NCBI RefSeq assembly: GCF_000953855.2
Contig: NZ_DF970177.1
Coordinates: 41,026-85,775 of the forward strand
DNA length: 44,750 nt
Direction of reading: 5' to 3'
Origin: Mizugakiibacter sediminis
Lineage (GTDB): Bacteria > Pseudomonadota > Gammaproteobacteria > Xanthomonadales > Rhodanobacteraceae
Numbering within the stretch: the stretch's first letter is position 1; each line of letters begins with the position of its first letter. Position numbers and translations under genes: made by a program. Shown one piece after another: positions 37,185 to 39,462 of this stretch. The notes beneath the pieces were generated by a model. That model was not told the origin of the DNA. It searched no databases and saw only the letters and a list, made by a program, of their open reading frames with translations.

Positions 37185-38516
37185 GTGAGCGTGCCGCGCG
37201 AGGTCGACCTGCTGATCGAGGCCCGTTGGGTCGTGCCCGTGGAGCCGCACGGCGTGGTGCTGGAGGATCACGCCGTCGCCGTCGATGGCGGCTCGATCGT
37301 CGCCGTGCTGCCGACCGCCGAGGCGCGGGCTGCCTGCGCGCCGCGCGAGCGCGTCGCGCTGGGCGAGCATGCGCTGATCCCCGGCCTGGTCAACGCGCAC
37401 ACGCACAACCCGATGACGCTGTTGCGCGGCCTGGCCGACGACCTGCCGCTGATGGTCTGGCTGCGGCAGCACATTTGGCCGGTGGAGGGGCGCGTGCTCG
37501 GCCCCGAGTTCGTGCGCGACGGCGTCGAGCTGGCGATCGCCGAGATGCTGCGCGGCGGCACCACCTGCTGCAACGAGAACTACTTCTTCCCGGATGTCGC
37601 CGCCGCCACCTACCGCCGCGCCGGCTTCCGCGCCACGGTCGGCCTGCCGCTGATCGAGTTCCCCAGTGCCTGGGCGAAGAGCCGCGACGAGTATTTCGAG
37701 CGCGCGCTGGCCGTGCACGACGACTTCCGCGGCGACGCGCTGATCGGCACCGCGTTCGCGCCGCATGCGCCGTACACCGTGTCGGACCAGGCCTTCGAGC
37801 GCGTGCGCATGCTCGCCGACCAGCTCGACGTGCCGGTGCACCTGCACCTGCACGAGACCGCGCACGAGGTCGAGGAAGCGAAGCGCGAGACCGGCCTGCG
37901 GCCGCTGCAGCGCATGCAGCAGCTCGGCATCGTCAACGACCGCCTGATCGCCGTGCACATGACCCAGCTCACCGACGCCGAGATCGCGCTGTGCGCGGAG
38001 GAGGGCGTGTCGGTGGTGCACTGTCCGGAATCGAACCTCAAGCTGGCCTCCGGCTTCTGCCCGGCCGAGAAGCTGCGCCGCGCCGGCGTCAACCTGGCGC
38101 TGGGCACCGACGGCTGCGCCAGCAACAACGACCTCGACATGTTCGGCGAGATGCGCACCGCGGCCCTGCTGGCGAAGGGCGTCGCCGGCGACGCCAGCGC
38201 GTTCGACGCGGCCGCCACGCTGCACGCCGCCACGCTGGGCGGCGCGCGCACGCTGGGTCTGGCCGACCGCATCGGCTCGATCGCGCCGGGCAAGCGCGCC
38301 GACCTCGCGGCGGTGCGCCTGGACCCGCTGGAGACGCAGCCGCTGTACCACGTGGTGTCGCAACTGGTCTACGCCACCGGACGCCAGCAGGTCAGCGACG
38401 TCTGGATCGACGGCCGCCGCCAGCTCGCCGACCGCGCCCTGACCGGCCTCGACGCCGACGCGCTGCGCGCCAAGGCGCGCGCGTGGCGCGAGCGCGTGGC
38501 GGCGATCGGCGGATGA
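37185..38516 (+). CDS. mtaD: 5-methylthioadenosine/S-adenosylhomocysteine deaminase (TRZ/ATZ family)
   Basis: 443 residues starting at GTG 37185, seven bases after efp. The amidohydrolase metal motif is intact (GLVNAHTHNPMTLLRGLADD), with HLHLHETAHEVEEA, VHMTQL, VHCPESNLKLASGF and LGTDGCASNNDLDMFGEM, all typical of MTA/SAH deaminases. It would deaminate methylthioadenosine or S-adenosylhomocysteine to the inosine forms. The order with ubiG (which produces SAH) and a MupP-like phosphatase is also known in Pseudomonas. Its stop overlaps the next start (ATGA, 38513-38516). Confidence 0.88.
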   Translation: MSVPREVDLLIEARWVVPVEPHGVVLEDHAVAVDGGSIVAVLPTAEARAACAPRERVALGEHALIPGLVNAHTHNPMTLLRGLADDLPLMVWLRQHIWPVEGRVLGPEFVRDGVELAIAEMLRGGTTCCNENYFFPDVAAATYRRAGFRATVGLPLIEFPSAWAKSRDEYFERALAVHDDFRGDALIGTAFAPHAPYTVSDQAFERVRMLADQLDVPVHLHLHETAHEVEEAKRETGLRPLQRMQQLGIVNDRLIAVHMTQLTDAEIALCAEEGVSVVHCPESNLKLASGFCPAEKLRRAGVNLALGTDGCASNNDLDMFGEMRTAALLAKGVAGDASAFDAAATLHAATLGGARTLGLADRIGSIAPGKRADLAAVRLDPLETQPLYHVVSQLVYATGRQQVSDVWIDGRRQLADRALTGLDADALRAKARAWRERVAAIGG

Positions 38517-38582
38517 CCCGACTCACGACGGCGGGCCGCCGCCCGCCCACGATGCGCATCATGCAAGCGACCAACGTCAGCC

Positions 38583-38627
38583 CCGACGAGATCGCCCGCT
38601 TCGAGAAGCTGGCGGCGCGGTGGTGGG
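38583..38627 (+). repeat. direct repeat copy 1 (ubiG N-terminal codons)
   Basis: 45 bases identical to 38780-38824, offset 197. It begins CCGACGAGATCGCCC and ends GCGGTGGTGGG, encoding DEIARFEKLAARWW. Sequence immediately outside differs between the copies. Confidence 0.95.
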
Positions 38628-38643
38628 GCGAGCCGGGTCGTGA

Positions 38644-38716
38644 CGCGGGATGCGATGAATCGCATCCCGCGCCGGCGAGCGCCCGGCCATGGATGGCCGG
38701 GCAGGCACCACGTGCC
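38644..38716. repeat. three consecutive hairpins of a REP-like element
   Basis: Stem 1 is 13 bp (CGCGGGATGCGAT with ATCGCATCCCGCG, two-base loop, 38644-38671). Stem 2 is 10 bp (GCCCGGCCAT with ATGGCCGGGC, two-base loop, 38681-38702). Stem 3 is 5 bp (GGCAC/GTGCC, 38704-38716). The stretch from 38716 to the ubiG start carries AGGAGGG (38736-38742), nine bases before the ATG. The element therefore provides the ribosome site of ubiG. Confidence 0.85.
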
Positions 38717-38751
38717 AGGGAAGGTTCGGTGCGACAGGAGGGCTTTGCGTC

Positions 38752-39462
38752 ATGACCGGCGTCGCGTCCAACGTGAATGCCGACGAGATCGCCCGCTTCG
38801 AGAAGCTGGCGGCGCGGTGGTGGGACCCCCAAGGCGAATCCCGTCCCCTGCACGACCTCAATCCGGTGCGCGCCGCCTTCGTCGTCGAGCGCGTCGTCCT
38901 GCACGGCGCGCGCGTGGCCGACGTCGGCTGCGGCGGCGGCCTGCTCAGCGAGGCGCTGGCGCGCGCGGGCGCCGCGGTGGTCGGCATCGACCTCGGCGCG
39001 GCGCTGATCGACGTCGCGCGCCTGCACCTGCACGAATCCGGCCTGCAGGTCGACTACCGGGTGTGCGGCTCGGCCGAACTGGCCGCGGCCGAGCCGGAAG
39101 GTTTCGACGCGGTCTGCTGCATGGAGCTGATCGAGCATGTGCCCGATCCGGCGGCGCTGGTCGCCGACCTCGCCGCGCTGCTGAAGCCGGGCGCGCGCCT
39201 GTTCATGTCCACGCTCAACCGTACGCCGGCCAGCTTCGCCGCGGCGATCCTCGGCGCCGAATACCTGCTGCGCCTGCTGCCGCGCGGCACGCACCACTAC
39301 GCGCAGTTCCTGCGCCCGTCGGAGCTGGCCGCGCTGCTGCGTCGCGCCGGGCTCGAGCTCGAAGAGGTGCGGGGCATCGCCTACAACCCGTTGACGCGCA
39401 AGGCGCGATTGACCGCGAACACCGCGGTCAACTACCTCGTCTGCGCGCGCAAACCCGCATGA
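38752..39462 (+). CDS. ubiG: ubiquinone biosynthesis O-methyltransferase UbiG
   Basis: 236 residues from ATG 38752. DEIARFEKLAARWWDPQGES, then RPLHDLNPVRAAFV, opens the protein. The SAM-binding motif is VADVGCGGGLLSEALARAGA, with VVGIDLGAALIDVARLHLHE and FDAVCCMELIEHVPDPAALV. The end is YNPLTRKARLTANTAVNYLV, as in UbiG. It carries out both O-methylations of ubiquinone synthesis. Start and ribosome site are supplied by an inserted hairpin element; a duplicated copy of codons 10-24 lies 197 bases upstream. The stop overlaps the next gene (ATGA). Confidence 0.95.
   Translation: MTGVASNVNADEIARFEKLAARWWDPQGESRPLHDLNPVRAAFVVERVVLHGARVADVGCGGGLLSEALARAGAAVVGIDLGAALIDVARLHLHESGLQVDYRVCGSAELAAAEPEGFDAVCCMELIEHVPDPAALVADLAALLKPGARLFMSTLNRTPASFAAAILGAEYLLRLLPRGTHHYAQFLRPSELAALLRRAGLELEEVRGIAYNPLTRKARLTANTAVNYLVCARKPA
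38780..38824 (+). repeat. direct repeat copy 2 (inside ubiG)
   Basis: Second copy of the 45-base repeat, within the intact ubiG reading frame. See copy 1 at 38583-38627. Confidence 0.95.

Follow-up and report, generated by a model that had tools for sequence, protein, structure and literature searches.

Integrative islands leave the interrupted end of a gene behind and carry a replacement end that restores the gene, with tRNA genes and conserved genes as their targets. Insertion sequences and casposons have direct repeats flanking the insert, and hairpins with GGA in the loop are a feature of the TwoAYGGAY RNAs. REP heads and RAYTs are treated in PMC2817692, it is already on record that GTAG REPs supply a TAG stop codon to the flanking gene (PMC3733652), and TwoAYGGAY is listed for human gut, gamma-Proteobacteria and Clostridiales (PMC2864571). 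Among the titles and abstracts of the open-licence PMC literature searched, no account was found of gene-end duplication by such repeats. Here we compare with these systems the mtaD-ubiG junction of Mizugakiibacter sediminis, which lies in a window of 44,750 nucleotides (the whole stretch of DNA analysed) and has the following layout.

38513..38755, plus strand: leader frame of 80 codons; begins with an ATG overlapping the stop of mtaD, ends overlapping the start of ubiG (ATGA)
From 38561, plus strand: ancestral ubiG start within the leader, native frame, MQATNVSPDEIARFEKLAARWW; continues across the element and ends in the ATGA at the ubiG start
38567..38627, plus strand: upstream copy of the ubiG 5′ end (truncated, ancestral); last bases GGTGGG, at the start of the element; up to 38627 collinear with the sister genome
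38625..38738, plus strand: element copy, model positions 1-114; 5′ end GGGGCGAGCC; 122.5 bits with covariance model R1, among whose building sequences this copy was
38644..38671, plus strand: hairpin 1, 13 bp, perfect; sequence variable, with compensatory changes across the family
38681..38702, plus strand: hairpin 2, loop TGGA, GGA invariant in the family alignment
About 38714..38725, plus strand: hairpin 3, loop AGGGAA, GGA invariant in the family alignment
38736..38742, plus strand: AGGAGGG, 9 nt before the ubiG ATG at 38752
38752..39462, plus strand: ubiG with rebuilt N-terminus, MTGVASNVNADEIARF...; translation matches ubiG-like loci of relatives
38764..38824, plus strand: downstream copy of the ubiG 5′ end; runs on into the gene body; collinear with the sister genome from 38780

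The original prediction, made from the letters alone, held that a hairpin-rich element had duplicated and rebuilt the 5′ end of ubiG, and most of what it read in the DNA is there. Direct comparison gives 45 identical bases at 38583-38627 and 38780-38824, an exact repeat that should be rare, given its length inside an 801-base region. With mismatches allowed, the repeat grows to 61 nt at 92% identity (38567-38627 and 38764-38824). The offset of 197 bases does put the two copies of the ubiG 5′ end out of frame relative to each other (197 mod 3 = 2), and the 80-codon frame overlaps the mtaD stop and the ubiG start as described. The AGGAGGG was also correctly placed, and its position makes it the likely ribosome site of the rebuilt ubiG. 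The region 38580-38830 folds better than 200 of 200 shuffles (z −3.55). Among the three hairpins proposed, the 13-bp stem and the second one were borne out; the 5-bp third (GGCAC/GTGCC) is not the conserved one, which in the family alignment is a short stem around an AGGGA(C)/ATGGA loop. The left end of the element is joined after GG, at the codons RWW|D of ubiG. A plasmid search returned one record with an mtaD-like gene.

The sister genome (G001) aligns at 88% on each side of the ubiG insertion, and the two alignments share exactly 45 sister bases; the sister thus has a single copy with nothing between and no element. Its one ubiG start is MQTANVSPEEIARF, reading MQTANVSPEE... against MQATNVSPDE... 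in the upstream copy. We take the upstream copy, which is collinear with mtaD and resembles the start of the sister gene, as the ancestral start and 38752 as the new one. Comparison of the junction with relatives and a search with 38628-38751 had both been proposed as checks; the former gave this empty sister site, and the latter gave more copies in the same genome, those in relatives being found with the models described below. The arrangement is therefore neither conserved in all relatives nor built on an element without further copies, the two outcomes named beforehand as counting against the prediction. What does not hold is that the insertion kept a coupling with mtaD: in the sister, 86 bases separate the mtaD stop from ubiG, with no ATGA there, and the overlap between mtaD and the leader is peculiar to the M. 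sediminis genome as against its sister. Among 80 named ubiG loci of relatives (the best 80 of at least 388 matches to the UbiG translation), one, L038 from MAG ZJ1.bin62, has a strong element match just upstream of ubiG (114.9 bits), and another, L050, has a weak opposite-strand match near ubiG (23.9 bits). No upstream ubiG copy was found at L038, and L373, probably the same contig, scores no duplication.

The element belongs to a family of interspersed repeats of about 115 bases with three hairpins. Its left end, GG.GA, is conserved in 34 aligned copies and reads GG followed by GYGARC in most copies of the element; the right end is variable. In the same alignment, 16 of 22 pairs are changed on both sides, 84% of cells are paired, and none of 500 shuffles reaches any of five covariation measures. 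The share of paired cells is 72% in hairpin 1 (8 of 10 pairs changed on both sides, in an imperfect alignment), 93% in hairpin 2 (6 of 9 pairs) and 95% in hairpin 3 (2 of 3 pairs). The GGA in the loops of hairpins 2 and 3 is invariant and the bases around it vary.

The two fullest further copies in the M. sediminis genome (G000) are those of purA and a molybdopterin oxidoreductase gene, where the 5′ end is again duplicated and the upstream copy is cut at the first bases of the element. Model R1, built from six copies including these two loci and ubiG (which score 94-122 bits), finds matches in 30 of 398 sampled genomes of the order and in 22 of 98 genera (E up to 1e-9). A second model, built from 34 copies, finds matches in 68 of 233 genomes of the family and in 9 of 26 genera (E up to 1e-7); both large searches were run with stricter filters, at which weak matches are lost. 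A scan for the core motif proved too unspecific. The copy number is low in most genomes, and reaches 82 matches at E up to 1e-4 in G028. Presence is patchy even between sister genomes: the pgk site of M. sediminis is empty and that of its sister is filled, as are 3 of the 30 pgk loci read in the family sample.

Like REPs, BIMEs and REPINs, the element is short, palindromic and multi-copy, and is extragenic or located at gene ends. It departs from REPs in its head, which is GG.GA and not GT(A/G)G, in its three hairpins and length of about 115 bases, and in the gene-end duplications. The cognate RAYT is also unmatched: a search for the Y1 transposase (PF01797) gave no match at E up to 1e-5 in the element-bearing genomes G028, G354, G347, G381 and G100. 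PF01797 is present in 19 of the 27 genomes searched, and a RAYT was rejected as the mover on account of those five genomes. A reverse transcriptase was rejected as well, and with it a retrotransposed element, since RVT_1 is found in 6 of the 27 genomes, with no match at E up to 1e-8 in the other 21, G028, G354, G342 and G282 included. One genome, G025, is rich in both domains, with 18 PF01797 matches at many places on contig C1 (L286, L304 and L314), several of them with identical scores, and 13 reverse-transcriptase matches.

The structure might also be read as that of a conserved leader RNA whose main role is to regulate the genes behind it, mobility being old or absent. Loops with GGA resemble CsrA/RsmA sites, and the invariant GGA in two loops together with the covarying stems is what such an RNA would offer. 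TwoAYGGAY (Rfam RF01731) likewise matches the element, below threshold, at 24.3 bits (gathering 43, E 0.58); both have GGA in hairpin loops, with flanking loop bases that vary in the element, and the latter adds hairpin 1, insertion behaviour and duplication, for which TwoAYGGAY is not known. TwoAYGGAY was rejected as the identity of the repeat, however, since none of 20 element loci gave a match at E up to 0.1. The patchy distribution, the copies at 3′ ends, at antisense ends and at tRNA genes, and the lack of an evident common function among the genes also speak against a leader RNA, which we consider quite improbable.

How often the gene end is duplicated was determined in a first set of 85 copies from 31 genomes, of which 76 were usable after 9 with runs of N were dropped (G029:C41, G032:C30:8762 and the weaker G000 and G001 matches were left out of the set). 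A duplication was scored when a direct repeat of score at least 16 had its left member ending no more than 3 bases from the element. It was found at the left end of 40 of the 76 copies, in 21 genomes (36 of 72 with tandem units counted once), whereas left flanks matched against the right flanks from other genomes score in 15 of 1500 pairings, in each of which the two genomes contribute the same gene or tRNA. In a second set, from genomes unused before, 15 of 42 copies and 11 of 24 genomes show a duplication, against 7 of 1000 mismatched pairs; these 42 remained of 47 copies after 5 with a short flank or N were dropped, and were drawn from the best-ranked matches, so that strong ones are over-represented. 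The copies without duplication number 36 of 76 in the first set and 27 of 42 in the second. In G028, tested apart, 55 of the 82 copies were compared with random pairs, and a direct repeat of score at least 20 occurs in 16 of the 55 against 8 of 60, which is no clear excess. An insertion therefore does not of itself always entail a duplication.

The longest frame to the left of the element ends on the TGA of GGGTGA in 13 of the 36 copies without duplication, as compared with 4 of the 40 copies with one. Several of the duplication-free copies thus sit at gene 3′ ends, and this supply of a stop by the element terminus is a further likeness to REPs. These results suggest that the duplication accompanies insertions by which a gene end would otherwise be disrupted, and reflects selection for rescued insertions, not an obligatory by-product.

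The duplications outside the tandem array measure 16-98 nt in the first set, and those of the second set 25-128 nt. The distance from copy to copy has a median of 197 bases and a range of 135-307 outside the array. In 18 duplications of at least 60 nt (four extra tandem units left out), identity is 95-98% in every 15-base bin with no trend. A decay of identity away from the junction, as expected for a foreign gene end, was accordingly rejected as a general rule, the mismatch in these 18 being 2-5%; when the walk is forced across all 36 loci, the mismatch does climb from 6% to 54%. Compared with integrative islands, the element also leaves an interrupted end, restores the gene, and targets tRNA and conserved genes, but the inserted unit is too short for an integrase gene and one family serves many genes. 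Its repeats of 16-128 nt are longer than the usual target duplications of insertion sequences and casposons, and are absent from many copies. The terminal inverted repeats and the short duplication of fixed size that mark a MITE of a DDE transposon are not seen here either, the right end being variable and the duplication 16-128 nt long or missing.

Tandem units also occur: four units of 202 bp, each an element with a purA 5′ end, lie before purA in G100 (L236 and L269; G100:C1:2120277-2121001), and two 197-bp units in G031. The G100 array shows that units can multiply locally, and the occurrence of such arrangements in this single-contig genome speaks against an assembly artefact. Such units would also be expected if local replication slippage had duplicated the gene end in tandem with the hairpins incidental, and at many loci the element start has GGG in common with the target. 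Slippage was already disfavoured, and we regard it as very improbable: the same element family is found at unrelated genes with the junction at its first bases, and in 33 of the 38 duplicated loci searched there is no second match above 30 bits, though a tandem duplication needs one.

The genes behind the duplications, named from their N- or C-termini, include ubiG, purA, pgk, accB, rpe, argC, cobalamin adenosyltransferase, molybdopterin oxidoreductase, hisF, enolase-phosphatase and others, and some duplications involve no nameable gene. A tRNA-Met gene is targeted as well, with Rfam confirming a tRNA for both copies in two loci (L226 and L233). Six loci (L223, L226, L233, L147, L234 and L353) have tRNA-Met-like genes interrupted near the 3′ end with a complete tRNA copy behind the element; the junction is TGGG|CCC in five of the six, and in the two that were searched (L226 and L233) even the truncated copy is scored as a tRNA. 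At L147, a contig end, a partial second element match can be seen by eye. A few duplications concern the 3′ end of an opposite-strand gene; at L232 and L278, for example, the element lies antisense where glnA-like genes end, and their last codons are duplicated.

Among duplicated loci of the same gene, one and the same codon holds the junction in ubiG (3 of 3) and purA (4 of 4), and the junctions lie within two codons in oxidoreductase (3 of 3), accB (6 of 6) and pgk (5 of 5); rpe has junctions at several positions. The target ends in GG in 32 of 55 cases. In G001, the leader upstream of purA (L210) has GGGAAGTATCGAAG followed by the same leader as the downstream copy in G000, and this sequence is perhaps the remnant of a lost element.

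The offsets are typical of the locus across genera: 221, 221 and 222 for oxidoreductase, 197, 194 and 194 for ubiG, and 211, 212, 217 and 217 for pgk. Such constancy raises the possibility that ready-made units of about 200 bases, each an element with a spare gene end, pass between strains and integrate by homologous recombination at the matching gene, somewhat like the attachment site of an island, in which case the duplication would have arrived with the unit and not been made when ubiG was hit. The N-terminus of the rebuilt ubiG, which differs from the native one though the inner 45 nt are identical, fits this picture. It is also consistent with the relatedness of the elements at some loci. 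Mean identity among same-locus elements (0.707 vs. 0.687) gives no clear answer, whereas in nearest-neighbour ranking over all loci, an element of the same locus comes first among those of other genera (rank 1) in 11 of 31 rows, with 0.77 expected. This signal comes from accB, rpe and pgk, for which it would favor shared descent or transfer; at ubiG, purA, oxidoreductase and tRNA the nearest element is not the one that another genus has at the same locus, and vertical descent with frequent precise loss would fit accB, rpe and pgk equally well. In addition, one of the four purA offsets deviates (159, the others being 195-202), and the long duplications are near-identical over 60 nt and not mosaic. 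On this evidence we think the transfer of ready-made units unlikely, yet the most serious of the alternatives.

On balance, we favor the explanation that 38625-38738 is a copy of a REP/MITE-like element, mobile now or once, whose insertions in gene ends probably survive by virtue of the duplicated end. The element would have joined ubiG after the GG at RWW|D and left the native 5′ end upstream as a truncated leader, with a second, complete ubiG 5′ end that has its own start and ribosome site placed downstream. Expression of ubiG would probably be kept by read-through transcription and translational coupling, ribosomes from the old start translating through the element and stopping on the ATGA at the new start. 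The insertion and the duplication may have been one event, or the unit may have passed between strains, and copies lacking a rescuing duplication may have been lost where the genes are needed. The duplication, the element and the new start of the original prediction are supported, and we only infer that the duplication is the work of the element itself. A more specific form, in which a small mobile DNA of a new kind is directed to particular codons close to the ends of conserved genes and tRNAs, joins by a fixed left end after GG and copies the gene end as it inserts, so that the broken gene is rebuilt behind it and at some loci remains translated through coupling to the old start, can be put forward only tentatively.

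The genes pgk, purA and accB, like tRNA-Met, are usually essential. If the insertions rebuild the genes they hit, such genes become usable landing sites, and core genes could acquire new start regions and leader peptides with no lethal stage on the way. At such loci, an annotated start codon or a short overlapping ORF may then be the scar of an insertion. The mechanism is testable because junctions recur at the same codon in different genera and because sister genomes offer empty and filled sites.

We further analyzed the leaders by extending the native frame of the upstream fragment in 28 coding rows, which cover 27 loci (duplicated loci with an unnamed gene and two loci lacking a motif match were left out). 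The leader stops inside the element in 18 of the 28 rows and passes through it in 10, which represent nine loci, both tandem units of L352 (rpe of G444) being counted. In seven of the 10 pass-through rows, the leader ends on a stop overlapping what is presumed to be the start of the rebuilt gene. The overlap is ATGA at ubiG in G000, G282 and G347 (the two g81 ubiG loci are related), GTGA at the oxidoreductase of G347 and at both rpe units of G444, and TGATG at one E1-like gene. For hisF of G237 and the oxidoreductase of G000 the overlap is with an in-frame TTG just inside the presumed start, and one leader ends 8 bases inside the gene. Coupling is not general, because 18 of the 28 leaders stop inside the element. 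The proposed coupling at the rebuilt ubiG start nevertheless gains weight, though not proof, from the ATGA at ubiG in two other genomes and the similar overlaps elsewhere.

Two other places in the M. sediminis genome are related to these observations. At L105 (G000:C47:137017-137114), a copy without duplication has a GGGTGA that forms the stop of an upstream moaA-like gene (...HIEMFQIGG*). At L088 (G000:C57:11981), near ribosomal protein genes as read by eye, a stand-alone CCGGCCATGGATGGCCGG hairpin is followed by a second hairpin with an AGGGA loop and then by a run of A, and might be a relative of hairpins 2 and 3.
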